A stretch of DNA of 64,000 bases from a virus (IMGVR_UViG_3300028840_006257:62001-126000); one strand, 5' to 3'. Shown: positions 10,517 to 55,183, counted from the first letter of the stretch. Notes: generated by a model not told the origin, from the letters alone. Made by a program: numbers and translations.

Positions 10517-13500
10517 ATGGCAAATTTCCCTGGGACCATCTACGCGCCTCCTGGCGTCTACACCCGCACCAGGTTCCAGAGCCCCGTCTCTGGCGTCCTG
10601 GCGGGCGTTCGCATCCCCGTCTTCATCGGCACCGGCAACGAGCTGCTTCAGCAGCAGGACCTCGAGGTCATTCGTGGCTCTAGCAGCTCGGTCGATCAGC
10701 AGGTCCCGCAGGAGGACGAGACCGGTCGTGCCGTCGTGAGCATCTCCGATACGGGTCAGGTGACCCTCGGGGACTTCAACGGCGCGCGACAGCGCATCCA
10801 GGTCCGCAACTTCCCGATCACGAACGGAGACGGAAGCGGGACCACCGCCACGGACCCGAGTTCCATCCTCGTGACCATCAACGGCAGGCCCGACGTGGTC
10901 CTGAGCGTGGCTCGCGCCGACATCGGCGTCATCGAGATCAGCACGGCGCCCGACCTGAACGACGACGTGCGGGTGACGTACTTCTTCAAGCGGCACGACA
11001 CGCAGATGACGGACAACGTGTCGGACCAGGTGACTCCCGAGTCGGCCATCCTCGAGGGCGCCATCGGCAACCTCTTCGAGTTCACCTCGGACGACAACGT
11101 GTTCACCGTCACGGTGGACGACGACCAGAACCAGGTCGTGACGGCCACCTTCCCGACGGGGAGCGTCTCGGCCTCGACGGTCGTCTCGCTGATCAACGGC
11201 GCCGCGGCGGGAACGTCGCTCATCGCGTCGGAGTACACGAACAACTTCGGCCTCACGGCCGTTCGCCTCGTGGCGGACCGCAACCTCCTCATCGGGAGCG
11301 GTTCGGCCAACGTCGTCCTCGGCTTCACGCAGGGCCAGGCGACGAGCCGCAACAAGAACTTCGTGACGTTCAACGGTCCCATCGTGGACGGGACGAACGG
11401 GGGCATCACGACGACAGACACGTCCAAGGTCACGGTCCGCGTGAACGGGACCCAGGTCATCCCGACCGAGCTCGACGGACGCAACCGCACCGTGACGCTG
11501 CCCTTCGCGCCGGCCGCCGGCGATCTCGTCACGATTCAGTACTACTTCAACACGTGGCAGGACACCTTCGACTACCTGGCCAACATCAACGTGACGGAGG
11601 TCCTCCGCTGCGGGATCGTGCCGGGCAACAACGACTTCATCGAGCAGGCGGACTTCGTCCTGAAGGACGACCTGATCGTGTGGGGGAGCGCTTTCCTGGT
11701 GAGCGCCGGCGTGACGAGCGTCGGGGCCCCGGCCTTCGGGCCGACGCAGATCAGCGGCCTTCTGGTCGACAACCGCTGGTTCCTGTCCGAGACGACCGTC
11801 GTCGTGGACGACACGGTCTCCCCGCCAGTCGAGAACCGTCGGCAGTTCCAGCTCCCGGCCCAACCCACGACGGGCAACGGCCGCGACACACCGCTCGGCC
11901 AGAACGTCTTCCTGTCCATCTCCAACCGGCGGGTGGACCTGCCGACCAACAACCCGAACCTCGTCAAGGCCTACTGGGGTTGGAGCGTGCAGGACGCCCT
12001 CCAGCGCGGTCCCGTGACTGTGACCGAGGTCAAGGGGTCGATCATCACCCTCGAGGAGTCCGTTCCCGTCGGAGCGGGCGTCTGGGCGACCTTCTGGTAC
12101 AACATCCTCGTCGACGAGGAGTACACGGTCCAGGTCGAGACCTCGGGACCGTCCGGCATCGGCACCTACTTCCTCTTCGACGGCGACGGAAACCCCGTCT
12201 ACACGCCGACCTTCGGGAGCAAGGGCCCCGCCATGACCGGGGTGACGATTTCGTTCCCCTCGGGCTCCGAGCTCACCCCCGACGTGCACTTCGAGGGCGG
12301 CACGAGTGGTCCCGTCGAGGAGACGGTGACGGTCCAGTTCGCGGACAAGGACGCCACCATCGCGAAGTTCACGGTCGGCGGCAGCGGTCCCTACGCGTTC
12401 GTCTCGGGCGAGTCCGACAGGGCCCGGTTCATGATCGACAGCAGCGCCCTCGCGGGCGGCACGGCCGGGATCGACCTGTCCGCGCCGCACGGCATCCAGG
12501 GACTCGGTTTCAGCGCGAGCCTCCTCGGAGAGGAGATCCAGTACGACGAGGATACCGGCACCACGACCTACGACGTCCTCGCGGGCATCAACGACGACGT
12601 GTCGATGTCCGTGGACGGCGTGGTCATCTCGGTGACGGTCCCGGCCCAGACCGGCGTGAACGCGGACGCCTACGTCGAGGCCATCAACGCCGAGGCGAAG
12701 CTGTCCGCGAACTCTCCGTACCTCGACGGCACCACCCGGTTCCTCGGGACCACGGTCGTGACCGCGGGCGAGTACGACAAGCTCGTGTTCAACTACACGG
12801 GCGTCACCAACCCCGCGACGGGCCCGGTGACCGCCGTCATCGCCCCGGGAACGTACGCCTCCCCGGCCTTCATGGCCGCGGCGGTGGACACGGCCCTGAA
12901 CACGGCCATCGCGGCCCTGCCGGCGGGGTATGCGGGCCTCGACATCGCCGTGACTGCGAACGCCGACGGACAGATGCGGTTCACCTACAAGGCGGCCGAC
13001 ACCGACCTGGGCACCTCCGCGAGCGGGACCGTCACCGAGGTGGGAGCCATCGTGGGAGACACGATCACCATCGACACGGTGACCTTGACCGGGGCTCTGA
13101 CGCAGGTTTCGGGCGGTCTCGACTTCGACACCGGGCAGGCTCGGGCGACTCTCGTGCCGACCGGCGTGGAACCCGGCGACAACTTCACGATCAACGCGGG
13201 GGGTGGCCCGATCACCATCACCGCGTTGGGCGCCCAGACCCCGGGTGGCCTGAACTTCGATGAGGGGGACCAGGCGACGGGCACTATCACCGTCTCGGGA
13301 CCAATTCCGAACGACACCGTCACGATCAACGGGATCACGCTGACGGCGCTCGGAGCTCAGACCCCGGGTGGCCTGAACTTCGACGAGGGCACGCGAGCCA
13401 CCGGCACCGCCACGCTCACCGGGGTCCAGTACGGCGACACGATCTCCATCGACACCACCGCGGTCGGGGGAGGTCCCGTCACTCTGACGGCTAGCAACAC

Positions 13501-16500
13501 GCTGACCCCGGGCGGCCTTGACTTCAACGTCGGCACGGCGGCGACGGGAAGCATTCAGCTCGTGGGCGTGCGGCCCGCGACCATCGCGCCGTTCCCGGTG
13601 ACCGCGGCCGACACCGTCACCATCGGCGGGAACGTCCTGACGGCGAACGAGGGGCCGCGCACGCCGGGCGCCGACGACTTCGACGCCGGGACCAGGGCGC
13701 TCGGGAGCGTCACGGTCGTCGTGGACGCGCTCCCGGCGACGGGCGTCCTGTACGGCGACACGATCACCGTCGGGGGCATCGCCCTCGTCGCGGACAACGT
13801 CACGACTCCGGGTGGCCTGAACTTCGACGCGGGCACCCAGGCGTTCGAGGTGCTGACCGTGCTCCTGGCTCCGGGCGTCCCGACGCCTCCCGCGGTCATC
13901 ACTATCGACGTGGGCGGCGCGGCGGGCGGACCGTTCCCGCTCATCCCGGCGGGCGGTCCGCGCACCCCGGGCGCGAACGACTACGACGAGACGCTCGGGA
14001 CCACGATGGCGATAGCGGCCGACATCGCGGCGGCGATCAACGATCCGCTCAACGTGTTCTCCGCGTTCATGAGCGCGGCCGTCGGGCCCGGTCCTTCGGA
14101 CGTGACGTTCACGTGGAACGTGCCCGGCGTGGTCGCCAACGGCATCGTGAACCTGACGGCCGATCCGATGCTCTCTCCGCTCGTCGGCTTCGCCGGCGGC
14201 GTTGGCACGGAGGTCACGACCGCGACGGCCCTCGTCACGGCGCTCAGCGATCCGCTGAACGGGCTCACGGGCCTCATCCAGGCGCACAACACCGGCGGCG
14301 TTTCCAACGTCGTGAACCTGCAGGCCCTCACCCCGGGCCTCGCGGGCAACTCGATCAGCCTCGTCTCCACGGCGCCGGCGCGGCTCGTGCCGTCGGCGGC
14401 GACCATGGCGGGCGGCGTAGGCGACGACCTCACGGCCGCAACCGACGTGCAGGCGGCGGTGAACGACGTCGCCAACTCGTTCGCCACGGCGGTGACGGCC
14501 CTCACGACCGGAGACACGGCGGCCCTCACGGCGGTCACGCCCGGAGCCGTGGGCAACCTCATCACGCTGACCACGACGGCGGCCGGGAGGTTCGTGCTGT
14601 CCGCCGGGACGCTCACGGGAGGGGTCGGCGACGACATCTCGGCGGCGACGAGCCTGGTCGCGGCAATCTCCGACGCGGGCAACGGACTCGTCGGCGGCGT
14701 CGTCGCGGACAACGCCTCGGGCACGACCAACGTCGTCACCATCGACTCGTACACGCCGGGACTGGTCGGTAACGGCGTCCTCCTGGCGGAGTCCACGGCC
14801 GGAGCTCGGATCGCGCTCTCGGGCGCCACGCTGCTCGGCGGCGTCGGCGACAACACGACGGTCGCGGCCTCCATCGCGGCGGCCATCAACGACGTCGGAA
14901 ACGGCATCGTGACCTCCGTGACGGCCCTCGCGGCCCTGGCCGTCGTCACGATGACGGCGGTGACGCCGGGCAACGCCGGAAATTTGATCGGTACCACGTC
15001 GTCAGACGCGACGCGCCTGCTCATGTCGGGCCTGACCCTCGCCGGGGGCTCGGGAACCGACCTCAGCGTCGCCACGAGCATCGTCGCGGCGATCAACGAC
15101 CCGGGCAACGGGCTCGCCGTGGACGTGATGGCCGACAACGCCAGCGGAACCTCGACCACGGTCACCGTGTGGGACCTGACTCCGGGCGTGCTCGGCAACA
15201 CGAACACCATCGCCTCGTCCACGGGCACGCGGCTCCCGGTCTCGGGCGCCAACTTCACGGGCGGCGACACGGTGGTGGGCGTGGGTTCGAACATCGTCAC
15301 CGCGATCAACGACGCGGCCAACGGCCTGAACGGAATCGTGACGGCCGACAACAGCGGGGGCACCTCGGCGGTCGTGGATGTCACGGCGGCCGTGCCGGGC
15401 CCGCAGGGGAACTTCATCGTGCTCGCCTCGAGCGACGCGGGGCGCCTCCCGGTCTCCGGCGCGACCCTCACGGGAGGTGCCGGCCTCGGCGGCGGCGTGT
15501 TCGAGTTCCTCGACGCGGCGACGGTCGCGGAGGACTTCGCGATTCTCGCGGGCCTCTCCACGGACGCGCTGCCCAGCCAGGAGCAGACCAAGGTCGTCGA
15601 CGGAGATCTCGTGCGCCGGTTCACGGCGTCGGGCAGCTCCGGGCGCCTGATCTACGACCGGCTCGTCGTCCGCAACCGCGTCGTGCCCGGCAGCGGGTCG
15701 CTCGCGGCCGAGTCTCAGGTCGACCAGACCCAGCTCGTCATCGAGGGCACGAACGCCGAGGACGAGACGGGCCTCCAGCCGAGGGCATTCGGATCGGCGG
15801 GGATCGAGGCGACGATCCGGTCCGCCTCCTTGTACGGGGAGGTGGGCTTCAAGGACGGTCAGGTGGCGTCGGGGACGTACGGGGACTCGCGCGACGGACA
15901 GCCCGCGGTGATGTTCTACGCCCAGGGTGGCATCAATCCCCAGAACAACGTGTTCAAGTTCAACATCGACGGGACGCCCGTGACGGTGGTGTTCACGGAC
16001 GGCGTCGGGGCCGCGATTCCCGCGGCCGGGAGCGCCAGCGTGCCTCTCGGTCCGGTCACGACGGCGAACACGGTCCTCGCCCAGATCCTCGCCGGGGCGG
16101 TCGGCGCCGGACTGCCAGCCTCGGTCGTGCTCCAGGAGGGCGCGGGCACCCGACTGCTGAGCGCCACCGCCACCACGGACTCCGCCGTCACGATAGGTGC
16201 CGGGAACGCGAACGACGTCCTCGGCTTCTCCGACGACGCCACGGCGGCCCGGACCCTGGTCGAGCCCGAGGTCACGGCCTCCGCGCTCATGATGCACCAC
16301 AGCGCGTCCCTCAACGACGCGCTCCTGGACTACCAGAACCCCGACGCGACGTACTTCGCAGAGCAGGCCCTCGCGGGCGTCGAGACCGACTCGAGCAACG
16401 CGCAGTTCCTCTTCATCGAGTCGCAGGCCAACAACATCGTGGGCCTCGGGGCCTCGTCCAACATTACGTTCCTCACCGCCACGAGTGACTCGTGGCTGCG

Positions 16501-17965
16501 CACGGGGACGGGAGTCGGCGTGGCGACGGGCGAGGGGGCCGCGGGCGAGAGCGGATTCCAGGGCTACTACGTCACGAGCTCGGACCCGGTCGACGGCTCG
16601 GGTTCCGCCAACACGTCGTCCCTCAACAACGGCACGGGCCAGGACGGCATCATCGGCACGACGTACCGCGACGCGGTGACGGGCCTCACCTTCACCGTCC
16701 TCGAGCGCGAGGGGGGCTCCGCCTACCCGACGGGCGCGGGGGCCTGGTTCACCTTCGAGGTGCGCAAGCTCGTCACCACGGACGCGAACATCCCGGTCAA
16801 CTCCATCCCGGGCCTCGAGATGACGGTCGCGAATACCGAGGGATCCACGATCCCGCAGGGAGACACGGCCATCGTCGAGACGTTCGACCGGGGCGGCCAG
16901 GAACCCGCGGTGGGGGACTCCTACTTCGTGACCTACAACTTCTCGAAGACGGAGGCCGACTTCGAGACGATGCTGTTCACGAATCAGCGGGCCGTGGAGG
17001 CGAACTACGGGGAGGTCAACCCGGACAACCCGGTGTCCCTCGCCGCCTACCTCGGCTTCCTGAACGGCGGGGTCGTCCTCGCCATCAAGCAGGTGCCGAA
17101 GATCCCGGGTTCGAACCAGGCGAGCACCCAGAGCTACCTCGACGCGCTCGACGACCTCAGGGGACCGCTGCCGGGAGGCGCCACGCTGGACACGATCACG
17201 CCGCTCAAGGGCGACGACGAGGACCTGTTCCTCTCCCTGTCGAACCACTGCGACATCCAGTCGAGCATCCGGTACCGCTCCGAGCGGACCGGGCTGATCG
17301 GGGTCTCGTCGGGGACGCAGCCGACGGACGTCGGCGGCATCGCGCAGCAGATCGCGAACACGCGCATCAGGCTCGTGTACCCGGACATCGTGACCCTCAC
17401 GATCCAGGACGCCCTCGGGAACGACAAGCAGTTCCTCGTGGACGGGACCTTCCTCGCGGCGGCGCTCTCGGGCAACCGAGCCGCCCCGAGGATCGACGTG
17501 GCGACCCCGTGGACGAGGGCCCGCATCGTCGGCTTCGACGAGCTCGCCCGTACCCTCGACGCGGTCGAGCAGAACCAGGTGGCCGTACAGGGCGTCACCG
17601 TCCTGGACCAGCGCGGCACGATCATCCGAGTCCGTCAGGGCCTCACGACGGACATGAGCAACATCCTCACCAAGCTCCCGACGGTCATCACCATCGCGGA
17701 CGAGGTGCAGCGCTCCGCTCGCAGGGATCTCGACAGGTTCATCGGGGTCAAGTTCCTGCCGGGCATCCTCTCGGAGATCGAGGGCCAGCTCGCGACCACC
17801 ATGAAGGCGCTCAAGAACGCCGAGATCATCGCGGCGTTCACGGGCATCCAGGCGCGGACCACCAACGACCCGACGCTGGTGGAGATCGAAGCATTTTATC
17901 AGCCGATTTTCCCGCTTTTATACATCGTTATAACCTTCAACCTTCGCAGCAACCTTGGAGGTTGA
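10517..17965 (+). CDS. Giant tail sheath protein with internal tandem repeats
   Basis: A 2,482-residue protein. The N-terminus (FPGTIYAPPGVYTRT) and the C-terminal ~350 residues (long helix with DEVQRSARRDLDRFIG, ending PLLYIVITFNLR) are typical of contractile tail sheath proteins; sheath subunits polymerise around the tube and contract at injection. Usual sheaths have about 400-800 residues, so this one is several-fold enlarged. Residues about 835-1158 are seven repeats marked by TPGGLNFD-like words; about 1160-1655 are seven or more repeats of about 70 residues ending in TLTGGVGD. These extra domains should project from the sheath surface. The start ATG 10517 follows AAGGGG. The last 25 codons have atypical codon use (see findings). 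No frameshift or intein is visible. Confidence 0.88.
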   Translation: MANFPGTIYAPPGVYTRTRFQSPVSGVLAGVRIPVFIGTGNELLQQQDLEVIRGSSSSVDQQVPQEDETGRAVVSISDTGQVTLGDFNGARQRIQVRNFPITNGDGSGTTATDPSSILVTINGRPDVVLSVARADIGVIEISTAPDLNDDVRVTYFFKRHDTQMTDNVSDQVTPESAILEGAIGNLFEFTSDDNVFTVTVDDDQNQVVTATFPTGSVSASTVVSLINGAAAGTSLIASEYTNNFGLTAVRLVADRNLLIGSGSANVVLGFTQGQATSRNKNFVTFNGPIVDGTNGGITTTDTSKVTVRVNGTQVIPTELDGRNRTVTLPFAPAAGDLVTIQYYFNTWQDTFDYLANINVTEVLRCGIVPGNNDFIEQADFVLKDDLIVWGSAFLVSAGVTSVGAPAFGPTQISGLLVDNRWFLSETTVVVDDTVSPPVENRRQFQLPAQPTTGNGRDTPLGQNVFLSISNRRVDLPTNNPNLVKAYWGWSVQDALQRGPVTVTEVKGSIITLEESVPVGAGVWATFWYNILVDEEYTVQVETSGPSGIGTYFLFDGDGNPVYTPTFGSKGPAMTGVTISFPSGSELTPDVHFEGGTSGPVEETVTVQFADKDATIAKFTVGGSGPYAFVSGESDRARFMIDSSALAGGTAGIDLSAPHGIQGLGFSASLLGEEIQYDEDTGTTTYDVLAGINDDVSMSVDGVVISVTVPAQTGVNADAYVEAINAEAKLSANSPYLDGTTRFLGTTVVTAGEYDKLVFNYTGVTNPATGPVTAVIAPGTYASPAFMAAAVDTALNTAIAALPAGYAGLDIAVTANADGQMRFTYKAADTDLGTSASGTVTEVGAIVGDTITIDTVTLTGALTQVSGGLDFDTGQARATLVPTGVEPGDNFTINAGGGPITITALGAQTPGGLNFDEGDQATGTITVSGPIPNDTVTINGITLTALGAQTPGGLNFDEGTRATGTATLTGVQYGDTISIDTTAVGGGPVTLTASNTLTPGGLDFNVGTAATGSIQLVGVRPATIAPFPVTAADTVTIGGNVLTANEGPRTPGADDFDAGTRALGSVTVVVDALPATGVLYGDTITVGGIALVADNVTTPGGLNFDAGTQAFEVLTVLLAPGVPTPPAVITIDVGGAAGGPFPLIPAGGPRTPGANDYDETLGTTMAIAADIAAAINDPLNVFSAFMSAAVGPGPSDVTFTWNVPGVVANGIVNLTADPMLSPLVGFAGGVGTEVTTATALVTALSDPLNGLTGLIQAHNTGGVSNVVNLQALTPGLAGNSISLVSTAPARLVPSAATMAGGVGDDLTAATDVQAAVNDVANSFATAVTALTTGDTAALTAVTPGAVGNLITLTTTAAGRFVLSAGTLTGGVGDDISAATSLVAAISDAGNGLVGGVVADNASGTTNVVTIDSYTPGLVGNGVLLAESTAGARIALSGATLLGGVGDNTTVAASIAAAINDVGNGIVTSVTALAALAVVTMTAVTPGNAGNLIGTTSSDATRLLMSGLTLAGGSGTDLSVATSIVAAINDPGNGLAVDVMADNASGTSTTVTVWDLTPGVLGNTNTIASSTGTRLPVSGANFTGGDTVVGVGSNIVTAINDAANGLNGIVTADNSGGTSAVVDVTAAVPGPQGNFIVLASSDAGRLPVSGATLTGGAGLGGGVFEFLDAATVAEDFAILAGLSTDALPSQEQTKVVDGDLVRRFTASGSSGRLIYDRLVVRNRVVPGSGSLAAESQVDQTQLVIEGTNAEDETGLQPRAFGSAGIEATIRSASLYGEVGFKDGQVASGTYGDSRDGQPAVMFYAQGGINPQNNVFKFNIDGTPVTVVFTDGVGAAIPAAGSASVPLGPVTTANTVLAQILAGAVGAGLPASVVLQEGAGTRLLSATATTDSAVTIGAGNANDVLGFSDDATAARTLVEPEVTASALMMHHSASLNDALLDYQNPDATYFAEQALAGVETDSSNAQFLFIESQANNIVGLGASSNITFLTATSDSWLRTGTGVGVATGEGAAGESGFQGYYVTSSDPVDGSGSANTSSLNNGTGQDGIIGTTYRDAVTGLTFTVLEREGGSAYPTGAGAWFTFEVRKLVTTDANIPVNSIPGLEMTVANTEGSTIPQGDTAIVETFDRGGQEPAVGDSYFVTYNFSKTEADFETMLFTNQRAVEANYGEVNPDNPVSLAAYLGFLNGGVVLAIKQVPKIPGSNQASTQSYLDALDDLRGPLPGGATLDTITPLKGDDEDLFLSLSNHCDIQSSIRYRSERTGLIGVSSGTQPTDVGGIAQQIANTRIRLVYPDIVTLTIQDALGNDKQFLVDGTFLAAALSGNRAAPRIDVATPWTRARIVGFDELARTLDAVEQNQVAVQGVTVLDQRGTIIRVRQGLTTDMSNILTKLPTVITIADEVQRSARRDLDRFIGVKFLPGILSEIEGQLATTMKALKNAEIIAAFTGIQARTTNDPTLVEIEAFYQPIFPLLYIVITFNLRSNLGG
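13063..13990 (+). repeat. Sheath repeat family A (7 units, about 40-50 residues)
   Basis: Seven diverged units, each with the pattern G-D-T-I-T-I-x-G..LTA followed by TPGGLNFD-x-GT-x-ATG. Marker words occur near 13108, 13240, 13360, 13504, 13663, 13806 and 13965. The two central units are nearly identical (ALGAQTPGGLNFDEG twice). The pattern is a beta-rich decoration module. Near-identity of neighbouring units suggests recent duplication or gene conversion. Confidence 0.75.
13996..15490 (+). repeat. Sheath repeat family B (about 7 units of 70 residues)
   Basis: Units follow the pattern VAAINDxGNGL...VxADNxSGT..VVTV..xTPGxxGNxIxL.S...RLxVSGATLTGG. The TGG(V/A)G junctions fall at about 14191, 14407, 14617, 14833, 15043, 15256 and 15469, a period of 210-216 nt that is a whole number of codons. 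Units differ from each other by many substitutions, so the array is older than family A. Confidence 0.75.
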
Positions 17966-17983
17966 TCTAAGCGGTTGCGGCAG

Positions 17984-18001
17984 TCCTACCGGGTGGTAGG
18001 A
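17984..18001 (+). promoter_or_regulatory. Hairpin between sheath and nuclease-methyltransferase genes
   Basis: A perfect 7-bp stem TCCTACC/GGTAGGA with loop GGGT occupies the 43-bp gap. There is no U-tract. The right arm contains AGGA, 7-8 nt before the GTG start at 18009, so the hairpin may mask the ribosome site and keep this gene weakly translated. The GGTAGGAT word is also the right half of the promoter motif at 7801. An operator for the encoded HTH is another possibility. Confidence 0.45.
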
Positions 18002-18008
18002 TTGGCAC

Positions 18009-20606
18009 GTGACCCCTGAACAACTCGAACAGGTTCTTGCGGCGTTTGCGTCCGACGACGCGGCCGCCGTGATTGCGAAATGCACAGGTGTGCCACGGGG
18101 TCACGTCTACAAGCTCTGGAAAGAACAGTTCGGACCGCGAGCTCTTCGGGATCGGGGCAACCGACTTCGCGGCCTGGCGAAGAGTCGTTCGGGAAACTCG
18201 GCCAGAACTGAGGTTCGCGACGCCGCCATCGCTGCCTTCGAAGAGGGGGAGGCGATGAAGGCCGTCGCGCTCCGGTTGGGGGTTCACTACACGCAGATTC
18301 GTGAGTGGTGGGTTGAGGTTTACGGGGTGGAGACGGTGGCCGAGCGGGGCCGTGCCCTTCAGAGGACTCGAACTCGTGCTAACCATGAGAGGCTCAGGGG
18401 AAAAGCGCGAAAGGTCCGCGTTATCTCGGTACCTTGTGACGCGTGCGGTCGGGATCTTGAGGTTTCTACCATCTCGGCGGCTAAAAGTTCGCGAATCGTG
18501 TGTTCCTCCTGCGAGCAGTCGGAACGAGGGGCCGACACCGCGTGTCCCGTCTGTGGTCGACTCTGCGTCGGGAAAAGGGGACTCGCGAGCCACTTAGGGA
18601 GCGCCAAAGATGAGGTCCATCGCGAGTATCTTCGGCACCAGGAAGAAGAGCGTCTTGGAGAGGAGGGTCACGGGCACGTGGTGTGCCTTGAGTGCGGCCA
18701 TCGTGCTCGGAATCTGTGGAAGCATCTTGAGGCGGAACACGAGATGACACCCTCCGAGTATGTCGGAAAGTGGCCGGGTGCGTGCTGGCGTACCGAGGCG
18801 GCAGAACGAGCACGAGTGCGACGGTCCTCTGAGGCACGTTCGGCCAGCGGCTTTGGAAAGGGGACGCGGAAGATCGTGGCATGTCCCCAGTGTTCAACGG
18901 AGGTCGAGGTCTCTCGTTTTGCGGGGCCGCTTCACGATCTACGCTGTGACGAGTGCAGGGCAGAGGACGAACTGAAGACATGGTGTGGGAAGAGCGAACC
19001 CGAGGACTACGTCTCCTGTCGAGAGTGTGGATTTCGGGCAGAATTTCTCATCTCTCATGTCCGATCCGCACACGACCTTGCAGAGTACGTGACTCGTCAT
19101 CCGGATGCGCCGTTCACGGCGTGTCGGGCTGGTCAGCGGAAATCACCGAGTACGAAGCTCGTGCTAACGAAGGAGCAGCTGGTGCCCTTCATGGATGAGG
19201 GGCGCGTTGTCGCGGCCGCCGCGGCGAGGGCCTTCGGGTGCGCGCAGTTTCAAATTCGTCGGGCGTGCAACGAGCTGGGGCTGCAAACCCGACGGCGGCT
19301 CGCCTGGCAGAAAGCGGTCCTGGATCGTGCCGCGTCGTATCTGGGCGTCGGCTACAAGTCGGAGTGGACCGATTCAAGGATCGTCAACGAGGCAACCGGC
19401 CGGAAGCTTCACTACGATGGCTTCTTTCCTTCCCGGAACTTGATCATCGAGGCTCACGGGGACCAGCATTTCTTCTTCATCGAAGCGTGGCACCGCACCT
19501 ACGAGGAGTTCGAACGCCTGCGCGAGTTGGATCGCTTCAAGCTCAGGCGCGCTCAGGAGCTCGGGTTTGCCGTGAAGGTCGTCCGGTACGGGGACGCGAT
19601 TCACGAGAGAGGCTTCTGGAGACGGCTCCTGGAGGACGACCGGGCGCTGTGGGCCAACAAGTCGGAGAGCGAGCGCCGGGACGACGTGGAGAGGGTGCTG
19701 CGGGAACTGAGGGTCTCGGGATTCCCCGACATCCTTCCCTCCCCGAAGACACGCGCCGAATTCACGAAACTCCAGAGACAGACGATCTATCTGGACTCGT
19801 CGGGAACGATCCGTCCACAGACGACGCGAGGCACGACGGCGTGTGCCTCTTTTTTTCCGAACAGGTACCGGGCCCGTTACAAGGGGGCGCCGAGCGTGCT
19901 GGAGGCGTGGGACGACGACGACAGGTTGCGCAGGGCAGTTCGGGTACAGATGGAGGCGGGACATCCCACCACCCCTCACCGTGTGCTGCGGGCCCTCCAG
20001 ATGATCTGTCGAACGCCCTCCGTGTTTCGTCCCGGAGTCGCCAAATACGTCTGTCAGACCTACTGTCGCGAGGGGGGGACCGTCTGGGATCCGTGTGCCG
20101 GCTACGGGGGGCGTCTTTTCGGCGCGATGGCAACGCACGTGGGGGCCTACCTGGGCACGGACGTCGAGCCCGAGATCGTCGAGGGAAATCGGAGATTGGC
20201 GCAGGAGATCGGCGTCTCCGATCGATGTCAAGTGGTTCAGGCGGCGGCCGAAGAGTTCGATCCCGAGTCCCCCCTCGATTTGGTATTCACGTCTCCACCG
20301 TACTACGACCTTGAAAGCTACGGGTCGCGGTCCGATGCTCGGGCCTACTCCGACGTGGGCGAGTGGCTTGAGCGTTTCCTGGTGCCCGTGATCAACAAGG
20401 GCGCCGAGCATCTCAGGTCCGGCGCCTACTTGATCCTGAATCTTCCGGCCAAACCCCGCGCCGGCGTCGTCCTTGCCGACGAGGCCGTCAAGATCGCCGT
20501 ACGAGCTGGTCTCGGGGTTCAGCCCGTCGTTTTCATGCCCGTCAGGCGCCTTCGGACCTCTCGATCTGCATGGAAGGACCCGCTAGTCGTTTTTCGCAAG
20601 CCGTAG
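18009..20606 (+). CDS. HTH / zinc-finger / Vsr-like nuclease / DNA methyltransferase fusion
   Basis: An 865-residue multidomain protein, GTG start. Order: two HTH-like segments (about 5-40, 68-105); Zn ribbon (Cys143, 146, 165, 168); C2H2-like finger (Cys179, 182, His195); MucR/Ros-like finger (Cys226, 229, His239, 244) with MTPSEYVGKW; a second Zn ribbon (Cys292, 295, 313, 316) and second MucR-like finger (Cys337, 340, His350, 355); HTH (about 387-430); Vsr/EDxHD/DUF559-type nuclease core (HYDGFF 468-473, EAHGDQH 481-487, ELDRFK 506-511, VVRYGD); and an amino-methyltransferase with SAM motif DPCAGYGG (694-701), TDVEP and catalytic TSPPYYD (761-767). GC3 is 60% in the first 30 codons. Reading: a mobile homing-type nuclease with its own methylase. 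Confidence 0.8.
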   Translation: MTPEQLEQVLAAFASDDAAAVIAKCTGVPRGHVYKLWKEQFGPRALRDRGNRLRGLAKSRSGNSARTEVRDAAIAAFEEGEAMKAVALRLGVHYTQIREWWVEVYGVETVAERGRALQRTRTRANHERLRGKARKVRVISVPCDACGRDLEVSTISAAKSSRIVCSSCEQSERGADTACPVCGRLCVGKRGLASHLGSAKDEVHREYLRHQEEERLGEEGHGHVVCLECGHRARNLWKHLEAEHEMTPSEYVGKWPGACWRTEAAERARVRRSSEARSASGFGKGTRKIVACPQCSTEVEVSRFAGPLHDLRCDECRAEDELKTWCGKSEPEDYVSCRECGFRAEFLISHVRSAHDLAEYVTRHPDAPFTACRAGQRKSPSTKLVLTKEQLVPFMDEGRVVAAAAARAFGCAQFQIRRACNELGLQTRRRLAWQKAVLDRAASYLGVGYKSEWTDSRIVNEATGRKLHYDGFFPSRNLIIEAHGDQHFFFIEAWHRTYEEFERLRELDRFKLRRAQELGFAVKVVRYGDAIHERGFWRRLLEDDRALWANKSESERRDDVERVLRELRVSGFPDILPSPKTRAEFTKLQRQTIYLDSSGTIRPQTTRGTTACASFFPNRYRARYKGAPSVLEAWDDDDRLRRAVRVQMEAGHPTTPHRVLRALQMICRTPSVFRPGVAKYVCQTYCREGGTVWDPCAGYGGRLFGAMATHVGAYLGTDVEPEIVEGNRRLAQEIGVSDRCQVVQAAAEEFDPESPLDLVFTSPPYYDLESYGSRSDARAYSDVGEWLERFLVPVINKGAEHLRSGAYLILNLPAKPRAGVVLADEAVKIAVRAGLGVQPVVFMPVRRLRTSRSAWKDPLVVFRKP

Positions 20607-20659: not shown

Positions 20660-21055
20660 ATGCGGGACGACCTGTACGCGGGCTGGCATCTGCTCTTCGA
20701 TGCCTTCGTAGACCCCGAGCACGCCGAGCGTCTGGACGACGCCGAGTTTCTTGAACGGTTATTCCGAGATCTCGTGGAAGTGCTCGACATGGAGATCCTC
20801 GGGGAACCGGCGTTCAAGAAGATTCCCTGCGATCCCTCCAGGCTGGACACGGAGCATGACGAGGGCGGCGTGACGGGTACCGTCATCGTCACCACGAGCC
20901 ACCTGAGCATCCACACGTGGCCCCTGCGGAAACGCTTCTGCCTCGACGTGTTCTCGTGCAAGCAGTTCGATCACCTCGCGGTCGAGAGGCTCGTGAGGGC
21001 ACGCCTCCGCGTCGAGAGGCGGTCGAGTCGCTGGATCCCACGGACGTGGCCGTGA
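20660..21055 (+). CDS. speD: S-adenosylmethionine decarboxylase-like (SpeD) pyruvoyl enzyme
   Basis: A 131-residue protein of bacterial SpeD length. The signature TSHLSIHTWP gives Ser80 (pyruvoyl precursor) and His85, and VFSC gives Cys100; the +5 and +15 spacing equals that of Ser63/His68/Cys83 in the Thermotoga enzyme. SpeD makes decarboxylated SAM for spermidine synthesis after self-cleavage before the Ser. The residue before Ser80 is Thr, whereas it is normally Glu, which is unusual. Some SpeD homologues, including phage ones, are known to decarboxylate ornithine or arginine instead, so the substrate is open. The ATG 20660 follows AGGAGGGC; an upstream in-frame extension overlaps the preceding gene and is unlikely. 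The stop overlaps the next start. Confidence 0.75.
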   Translation: MRDDLYAGWHLLFDAFVDPEHAERLDDAEFLERLFRDLVEVLDMEILGEPAFKKIPCDPSRLDTEHDEGGVTGTVIVTTSHLSIHTWPLRKRFCLDVFSCKQFDHLAVERLVRARLRVERRSSRWIPRTWP

Positions 21056-21333: not shown

Positions 21334-22125
21334 ATGGCTAACAAAGACCTCGCCCCCGCGAACGGCGTACAGGGCTCGAGCTACATCTACGACTTCGGAA
21401 CGTCCCCGCAGACGCGAACGGCGGTGAGTCAGAAGGTCCGTCTCCTGACGCCGGCCTACGGCTCGGATGCGAACCTCCTGTTCCAGATGGGGGTCCTGAG
21501 CTCCTTCACGCCGAACGAGACGCGCACGATCGACACCCTGCGCGGGATCGGCTTCGGCGACATGATCGCCGAGCTCGTGCCGTCGGTGACGGAGGCGATG
21601 ACGGCCGGCTTCGAGCGGGCACTCCTGTACCTCTCGAACCTCTGGCAGGCCACGGGCTACGCGGGGGGCGCCTCGGGCCCCGTCAGGAGCCTGCGGCACC
21701 ATCGCTGGCCCTTCGACATCGAGCAGCAGCTCGTGTTCTCGACCCTCGCCGACTACGACCTCACGGGTCAGGCGGGCGTCGGGTTCAACGGGGGCGGCGG
21801 CACCTTCGACGGGGGCGTGAAGGAGATCGTCTACCCGCAGGTCACCAACGATCCCAACAACTTCCCCGGCGACCTCCGGGGTCACACGGCGATCATCACG
21901 CTCTACGAGACCTGCTGGTTCAACTCCTGGTCCCTCACGAACGTGAGCCGCGACACGGGGATGCTGATGGAGACCGGGGACGTGACCATCAGCGACGTCC
22001 ACGACTTCAGCTCCGAGTACGGAGAGTTCCTCGCCACCGGCAACGACCCGACCATCGGTCAGGTCGGGTCCGTCCGGTTCAACGTGGGCGATCAGCGGAC
22101 CGCCTCCGACTTCATCACGACGTAA
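21334..22125 (+). CDS. Probable tail tube protein
   Basis: A 263-residue, beta-rich, mildly acidic protein. The central region (about 175-235) alternates strands as RGHTAIITLYETCWFNSWSL and METGDVTISDVHDF, as in tail tube folds where a beta sandwich forms hexameric rings. Gly-rich loops (GVGFNGGGGTFDGG) are present. It is the first structural gene after the sheath and precedes the tail chaperones and tape measure, the standard place of the tube gene in myophages. The ATG 21334 follows GAGAGGAAGG. A tube assignment is made from size, order and fold character, not from a recognised family motif. Confidence 0.6.
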   Translation: MANKDLAPANGVQGSSYIYDFGTSPQTRTAVSQKVRLLTPAYGSDANLLFQMGVLSSFTPNETRTIDTLRGIGFGDMIAELVPSVTEAMTAGFERALLYLSNLWQATGYAGGASGPVRSLRHHRWPFDIEQQLVFSTLADYDLTGQAGVGFNGGGGTFDGGVKEIVYPQVTNDPNNFPGDLRGHTAIITLYETCWFNSWSLTNVSRDTGMLMETGDVTISDVHDFSSEYGEFLATGNDPTIGQVGSVRFNVGDQRTASDFITT

Positions 22126-54010: not shown

Positions 54011-55183
54011 ATGAGTTTCGACTTCCAGCTCGCGCACGCGTGTCCTCACCTCACGATAGAGGAGGAGGTGCTCCTGGGCGACGACCGCCGCGAGCTCAGG
54101 ACCCGGCAACCCGTGGCCTCGGCCAACCACATCCGCATCACCGCCAACGATCAGGTGTCGATCCCGCGCCAGGGTCTCCTCTCGAACGCGTCGCTCACGG
54201 GTTCGAGCAGCGGTCCCTTCAAGGTCGTCAAGAACGAGAACGAGGTCACCCTCTCCAACCGGACCCAGTCGGTCGCGGACGTTGTGCTCCCCACCGGGAC
54301 GCGGGTGCCCACGGATCGTATCGTCGAGGTGCTCAACTCGGCCGTCCGCAACGCCGACGTCCAGATCCGCGTGGTCAACAGGAACGGCTCCCTCGTCCTC
54401 ACGGATTCTTCCGACCAGGGCAACTCGTCCCAGATTCGGGTCGAGGGCCCGGCCGCGGCCTTTCTGGGGTTCGTGAACCAGACGCGCGCCCGGGGGCGAA
54501 AGGTCTATCCGGCCTGGGACTTCGCGGAGCGCGAGCTCGTCGAGACCGGACGGTACCTCAACGTGAGGAGGGTGCCCACGCGCTTCCCGAAGTTTCGCGA
54601 GCCGGTCAGGGGCAACCCGGTGTTCAAGGTCTCCTACACGACCTATCAACAGCACTGCCGGCGTTGTCTCGGATACGGCATCGAGAACGACTACCGAGTC
54701 GGGGCGAACGGCGAACCCTCGACCATCGAGAACGAGGACCTCCTGAACCAGGACTGCCTCAAGGTCCTCAGCACGGTCAAGAACTCCAACCCGTTCCATC
54801 CGGAGTATGGCACGCAGCTCCTGAACCGAATAGGCACCAAGGCGCTCGGCACAGGCGTGGCGACCATCAACGAGGACGTCATCACGGCCCTGACCGTGTT
54901 CCAGCGCACGCAGGACTTCGCGGGCCGCTGGCAGGAGATCACGGCGCGGCAGAGGCTGGCCTCGGTCATCTCGATAGACACGACCCCGTCGCCGTTCGAT
55001 CCGACGATCTTCGAGGTCGTCATCGTGGCCGCGAACGCGGCCAACGTCCCGGTGGTGATCTCGACGGTGTACGCGGCCCCGGGCACGGCCGCCCTGGCAG
55101 GCTCGAACGGGCTGTCGCTCGGACTCGAGGGATTCGGACTGGATCCGCGCACGCGGGCGCTTCCAGGGATGGCGCCCAGCTAG
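54011..55183 (+). CDS. Baseplate wedge protein with gp25/gpW-like C-terminal domain
   Basis: A 390-residue protein. Residues about 30-200 are beta-rich. A CRRC pair (Cys216, Cys219) follows. From about 240 to 365 is a gp25/gpW-type domain: NPFHPEYGTQLLN (260-272), helices, then strands (VISIDTTPSPFDPTIFEVVIV, in part). That family forms the inner wedge core and nucleates the sheath in T4-like phages. It directly precedes the J-like gene, the conserved gpW-gpJ-gpI order. The N-terminal extension with CxxC is unusual for gp25, which is normally a single domain of about 130 residues. Confidence 0.7.
   Translation: MSFDFQLAHACPHLTIEEEVLLGDDRRELRTRQPVASANHIRITANDQVSIPRQGLLSNASLTGSSSGPFKVVKNENEVTLSNRTQSVADVVLPTGTRVPTDRIVEVLNSAVRNADVQIRVVNRNGSLVLTDSSDQGNSSQIRVEGPAAAFLGFVNQTRARGRKVYPAWDFAERELVETGRYLNVRRVPTRFPKFREPVRGNPVFKVSYTTYQQHCRRCLGYGIENDYRVGANGEPSTIENEDLLNQDCLKVLSTVKNSNPFHPEYGTQLLNRIGTKALGTGVATINEDVITALTVFQRTQDFAGRWQEITARQRLASVISIDTTPSPFDPTIFEVVIVAANAANVPVVISTVYAAPGTAALAGSNGLSLGLEGFGLDPRTRALPGMAPS

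Follow-up and report, generated by a model that had tools for sequence, protein, structure and literature searches.

The closest anatomical match to the phage locus described here is found in fungal mitochondria, where mobile ORFs with C-terminal replacement are known from atp6 of Allomyces and from atp6, atp9, cox2 and nad3 of Glomus (PMC3630166). In these cases, an endonuclease gene arrives with a divergent in-frame 3' end for an essential gene, which differs largely by synonymous changes and replaces the native end; the latter stays downstream (PMC3630166). The fungal enzymes are LAGLIDADG or GIY-YIG endonucleases, and there is no methyltransferase (PMC3630166). In phage T4, the intronless homing of SegF, SegG and MobE involves free-standing nuclease genes located between conserved genes and co-conversion of the flanks; expression of T4 homing endonucleases is described as controlled by hairpins in which the ribosome site is hidden (PMC2988022). 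The T4 enzymes have other folds and cut at sites distant from their insertion, without a carried recoded coding end (PMC2988022). The cyanophage enzyme F-CphI, of the Endo VII type, is a free-standing endonuclease encoded beside its target gene and takes part in collaborative homing, with separate self-protection provided by an intron that interrupts the target (PMC6083498). An EDxHD (Vsr-like) family of homing endonucleases is named in the same work (PMC6083498). The engineered home-and-rescue drive HomeR is aimed at the 3' end of an essential gene, for which it provides a re-coded rescue of 22-27 codons with a new 3' UTR; it is a Cas9-based laboratory construct in flies (PMC7968924), whereas for the phage element described here we infer the cutting. 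In the open-licence literature that we searched, no paper described recoded gene ends as conferring self-immunity on phage homing elements.

We found that a phage tail sheath gene ends in a foreign, in-frame 3' segment that leaves the protein conserved, as in the Allomyces atp6 type. The stretch of DNA analyzed (the window, 64,000 nucleotides) comprises positions 62001-126000 of a 213-kb virus record, and all features given below are on its plus strand. All loci compared with that of the window phage are metagenomic contigs and are designated by L-numbers. The sheath gene (10517-17965) encodes 2482 amino acids. In a tblastn search, the C-terminal 353 residues were matched by annotated tail sheath genes of phage G, Myrna, Tunturi_5 and others, and judged by these matches the product is a contractile tail sheath. 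The protein is unusually long, and its middle (window 12000-15400) is rich in repeats of the TPGGLxFN and TAVTPGxxGN types.

The recoded 3' end (17888-17962) consists of 25 sense codons that encode normal protein in foreign codon usage. A first-pass annotation of this DNA had reported that only 12 of these 25 codons end in G or C, that the last 78 nt contain 33 G+C, that the change is abrupt at 17888, and that 43 bp separate the sheath gene from the next gene. All four statements hold. Overall, 93.0% of codons in the sheath gene end in G or C, and 12/25 is the minimum over all 25-codon windows of the gene; likewise, 33 G+C is a minimum (window mean 53.7). The maximum-likelihood change point is exactly 17888, and the next gene begins with a GTG at 18009. 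The annotation also called the C-terminus that of a normal sheath; indeed, the end of the protein is unchanged. TTA, CTA and TTT do not occur in the sheath gene outside the tract and ATA occurs twice; the tract contains TTA, ATA and TTT. In a test of the stretch between the PVFPLLY codons and the stop, whose codon usage was set against that of every window of equal length in the same gene (the tract test), the end of the sheath gene had a z of -11.3.

This shift is a property of the sheath gene end. A control test of 3'-end codon usage covered 16 further long genes of the window, 15 of which were ordinary (z -1.7 to +1.0); the sheath gene had a z of -8.0 in the same test. The sole other window gene with odd 3' codon usage (54011-55183; z -6.1) owes it to a GGA-rich tail. 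Based on the windows of the same gene and the control genes, we rejected an artefact of composition. We also rejected an error of assembly: an independent contig from another assembly (L001) is 99.99% identical over 14.6 kb and has the same locus with the same recoded sequence, which a slip in the assembly of a single record would not explain.

The gene that follows (18009-20606) encodes an 865-residue protein with an HTH, a zinc finger, a nuclease of the Vsr fold and a DNA methyltransferase; its relatives include those in L005 (64% identity) and L092 (59%), among others. The ROS/MUCR zinc finger (18672-18776, residues 222-256; Pfam PF05443, E 5e-12) was detected in 23 of 25 family members. 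The nuclease domain (19158-19652, residues 384-548) was delimited from alignments and a structure model. An alignment of 25 relatives contains invariant D470, E481, G484, Q486, H487, D508 and K511. The AlphaFold model (pLDDT 91.8) has the E. coli Vsr structures 1vsr and 1cw0 as the two highest-ranked Foldseek matches (probability 1.00, E 3e-3, TM about 0.4). As modelled, the nuclease domain has a Vsr fold. I-Bth0305I, an intron-encoded EDxHD (Vsr-like) homing endonuclease with a Vsr-type fold, was itself absent among the listed fold matches, and no solved homing endonuclease had a significant sequence match to the element nuclease. The alignment displays a D..ExHGxQH..D..K pattern. The sheath element has a Vsr-type fold in common with the EDxHD enzymes, and differs in being free-standing and in having an HTH, MucR zinc fingers and an optional methyltransferase.

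The methyltransferase domain (19674-20603; DPCAGYGG ... TSPPY) was identified by alignment, by a model (pLDDT 90.5) with structural matches to Rossmann methyltransferases, and by sequence matches to DNA methylases, including a cytosine-N4 enzyme. In a collection of annotated phages, the element was matched at the level of the methyltransferase only. This domain is dispensable: it is present in eleven of 28 distinct carriers and absent from the other 17 (e.g., L006, L008 and L029).

We found that some phages have the nuclease gene and others do not, and that its site is fixed. Scans of viral contigs, in which the sheath end and the nuclease served as queries, identified 28 distinct phage loci with a gene for HTH, MucR zinc finger and Vsr-fold nuclease directly 3' of the sheath gene, in phages whose sheath proteins range from 100% down to 40% identity. 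In viral contigs, relatives of the nuclease were found only at this position, excepting weak matches to the nuclease domain alone. The element is present in the window phage, L003, L005, L006, L008, L049 and L092, and absent from L004, L009 and L012. At the empty site of L004 (88% sheath identity), the sheath gene is followed by 95 bp with a terminator-like hairpin, an S-adenosylmethionine decarboxylase gene, and the next conserved gene. In the window, the decarboxylase gene (20660-21055; PF02675, E 2e-19) flanks the element on its other side. It is approximately 54% identical to that of L004, and its neighbours are 88-96% identical; it could be fast-evolving or could have been exchanged with the flank of the element. 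The next conserved gene (21334-22125), the right-hand anchor of the locus, is 90-96% identical in L003, L004, L005 and L049. Family searches with this gene gave no match; by its position it is tentatively tail-tube-like.

Nucleases at this site are only 28-65% identical among phages with 85-90% identical sheaths (83% for the pair L006 and L008), and similarity of the nucleases is uncoupled from that of the sheaths (rho 0.17). The divergence of nucleases next to near-identical sheaths, some without a methyltransferase, indicates that elements turn over or replace one another at one site, which homing elements would be expected to do. In L003 and L013 the element is apparently broken (L003 6148-10474), with an N-terminal ORF of 325 residues, an inserted gene for an m5C-type methyltransferase of 358 residues, and a separate nuclease-methyltransferase ORF. 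In L025, a remnant of the N-terminal region (ORF 131-469) follows the sheath stop codon, behind a strongly shifted sheath end, and the element has likely decayed.

The 43-bp gap contains an RNA hairpin (17981-18004) whose 3' arm includes a Shine-Dalgarno-like GGTAGGA, 7 nt upstream of the start codon. The predicted fold is stable in the window phage (z -3.1), L005 (-5.0), L092 (-3.7), L006 (-7.9) and L008 (-6.7) and weak in L003, and there are compensatory changes between L005 and L092. By analogy with the T4 hairpins, this structure likely limits translation of the nuclease.

We found that recoding of the sheath end is associated with the element. We called a sheath end anomalous if it was in the lowest 1% of codon-usage windows of its own gene. 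By this measure, 23 of 28 carriers were anomalous, compared to 4 of 11 loci without a detected element (Mann-Whitney p 0.0014, an optimistic value because the loci are phylogenetically related). One of these four, L025, has the element remnant described above. The other three (L018, L021 and L024) have shifted ends and no element gene was found; these may be scars or resistant alleles. In the clade of the window phage, the z values for carriers other than the window phage were -10.3 (L005), -9.5 (L008), -8.0 (L006), -5.9 (L003) and 0.0 (L049), versus +0.4 for the empty site of L004. Five carriers (L030, L049, L043, L033 and L060) had no clear shift. The anomaly begins at the V of the conserved PVFPLLY and runs to the stop codon.

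GC3 of the tract follows that of the gene in other loci (rho 0.63) and does not do so in carriers (rho 0.14). For 16 close pairs of carriers with different elements, synonymous identity has a median of 0.63 upstream and of only 0.35 within the tract. The sharp drop in identity at 17888 predicted in the first-pass annotation has the predicted direction in a comparison with element-free L004, and its size is modest, smaller than the contrast among carriers: synonymous differences increase from 23 of 67 codons to 13 of 24. The element-free relatives L004, L009 and L012 do not have the same end, but shifted ends also occur in L018, L021 and L024, in which no element was found. The description of the end as AT-rich does not apply to the family, since in AT-rich L067 the GC3 rises from 0.10 in the sheath body to 0.59 in the tract. 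The interpretation given in that annotation is partly supported. The data favour its broader proposal, in which the end was acquired with the element and replaced the native one: such ends are present in carriers and not in L004, the closest empty site, three carriers have a core in common, and the protein is unchanged. The recoding would also remove the nuclease target, as was proposed there.

That core, CTTTTATACATCGTTATAAC (17915-17934), is an invariant 20 nt common to the window phage, L005, L092 and L253, and is built largely of codons that are almost absent from the rest of the sheath gene. The six codons for LLYIVI (CTT TTA TAC ATC GTT ATA) are identical in the window phage, L005 and L092, and the flanking codons vary on both sides. 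The nuclease genes of these three phages, whose proteins are 59-65% identical, all agree at only 64 of 436 comparable codons (15%). The chance of six identical codons out of six is about 1e-5 at the rate of the nuclease gene and about 0.01 at that of the sheath gene itself. Such conservation exceeds what would survive drift. In the viral contig collection, the 20-mer was found only in carriers (those three and L253, which has the same element type), and it was not found in genome_contigs. Because the core is kept in three phages with diverged nucleases and is elsewhere found only in a carrier, the rewritten tract belongs to the element. A second subfamily (L006, L008 and L029) has a different 23-nt tract in common, even though the L029 sheath is only 56% identical to that of the window phage.

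The earlier view of a single recoded segment from 17888 can be refined. The change does begin there in the window phage; it begins at about 17909 in L005 and L092, and the conserved part is only about 20 nt. Since recoding reaches further upstream in the window phage than in its sister elements, comparison of these sequences suggests that 17888-17914 is probably a variable, co-converted flank and 17915-17934 the functional part.

Based on these results we suggest that a free-standing homing element targets the 3' end of the sheath gene and carries a recoded, uncleavable replacement for it. We assign this reading a probability of roughly 0.68; its evidence is comparative, and cutting and immunity are proposed from it. 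The element protein would bind and cut sheath genes that have no element behind them, at the 3'-terminal DNA that encodes the conserved PVFPLLYIVITF. Repair from the carrier would then copy in the nuclease gene together with the attached sheath 3' end. Because the carried end is synonymously recoded, the hybrid gene would make normal sheath and the element would spare its own genome, and keeping the sheath working while protecting the carrier from its own enzyme is probably what the carried end does. The methyltransferase, where present, might add a protective or modifying role, perhaps at partly matching sites. Carriers with a methyltransferase are seemingly less recoded (L049, L043 and L014), although the difference is not significant (p 0.19).

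Some observations go against the homing reading. There are the five carriers without a clear shift and the three shifted loci without an element. In addition, similarity of the tract is not correlated with similarity of the nuclease over all pairs of 25 carriers (Mantel p 0.47); we attribute this to a tract that is too short and too saturated, such that the link is visible only inside subfamilies. Lastly, unlike the fungal cases, in which the native end stays downstream (PMC3630166), the sheath loci have no remnant: no displaced native sheath 3' end and no second copy of the motif was found downstream in any analyzed locus.

The recoding might instead have no function. An element arriving from a phage of other base composition could have dragged along a piece of the donor sheath gene by passive co-conversion. 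Homing is known to co-convert flanks (PMC2988022), and the different 5' limits of the tract (17888 versus about 17909) make part of the tract in the window phage look dragged. However, the core is invariant in three phages whose nuclease genes are almost saturated at synonymous sites. Furthermore, in many independent elements this short tract ends at almost the same codon, and it deviates in both GC directions. We consider a purely passive origin unlikely.

A regulatory origin seems less probable still. The tract could be a promoter or operator of the nuclease gene, with the coding changes a side effect, much as I-TevI binds without cutting an operator that resembles its homing site and lacks the cleavage sequence (PMC2988022). 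The exact conservation of 20 nt is what such a function would leave, and the core holds a perfect palindrome, GTTATAAC (window 17927-17934), with GTGATCAC at the same codons in L006, L008 and L029. From its sequence, the palindrome could be a binding or methylation site; the chance of a palindrome at these codons is, however, about 1 in 4 per lineage. A scan of 17600-18200 for promoters of the sigma-70-like type, the only type covered, found none, and the core is not conserved across the family, whereas the anomaly is. The constraint on the exact 20 nt also speaks against the homing reading in that it is tighter than non-cleavability alone would require; the core may serve as operator or promoter as well. 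The exact conservation and the precedent of I-TevI suggest that the core may still be bound by the element protein, and an operator is compatible with immunity, since one bound and uncut site could serve both.

We think it very doubtful that the fusion of nuclease and methyltransferase acts like a restriction-modification system against DNA of competing phages or the host, with its place beside the sheath gene incidental. Fusion of the two activities fits such a system, as does the joining of the same methyltransferase domain to another nuclease behind the major head gene of other phages (see below). However, most family members have no methyltransferase, and the position beside the sheath gene is constant as sheaths diverge down to 40% identity. 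Repeated cutting with error-prone repair in place, for which the elevated polymorphism reported beside mobile introns of yeast mitochondria (PMC5378118) offers a parallel, is hardly credible, as independent mutation is not expected to give different phages the same core within a clean, synonymous replacement.

We found that the methyltransferase domain is also present at a second site. Immediately after the major head protein gene (phrog_2522) of other phages lies a gene that joins this domain, at about 40-50% identity, to a LAGLIDADG nuclease (PF03161, E 1e-18 and 4e-23 in two copies). Such fusions are present in L097, L098, L099, L102 and L105, and in L100, where the upstream gene is off the contig. 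Other head-gene loci have downstream LAGLIDADG genes (e.g., L193, L200, L216 and L222). The occurrence of one domain at both sites indicates that the methyltransferase module is common to homing elements with different nucleases. Head-gene ends at the fusion site are mildly shifted (median z -1.0 versus -0.1, p 0.0025), with no shift in several fusion carriers. Recoding is thus a trait of the sheath-site family and not of all these homing elements.

These two sites might belong to a widespread natural class of 'cleave-and-rescue' elements in phages, an idea that we offer tentatively and would not yet bet on. Interchangeable nucleases (Vsr-type at the sheath gene, LAGLIDADG-type at the head gene) would attack the 3' ends of essential virion genes, and the carrier would be protected by a recoded end, by the shared methyltransferase module, or by both. 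The core would double as an operator that is bound and not cut.

If the proposed mechanism is true, the sheath element would be a natural counterpart of engineered gene drives with a recoded rescue, and targeting of the 3' end would leave only about 20-25 codons to recode. Homing targets and self-immunity could then be recognized from sequence alone, wherever synonymous codon usage changes sharply at the end of a conserved gene that lies beside a nuclease gene. The findings also raise the testable possibility that recoding and methylation divide the task of self-protection between them. Homing elements would leave short recoded scars in virion genes, and these would confound work on codon usage and phylogeny of phages.
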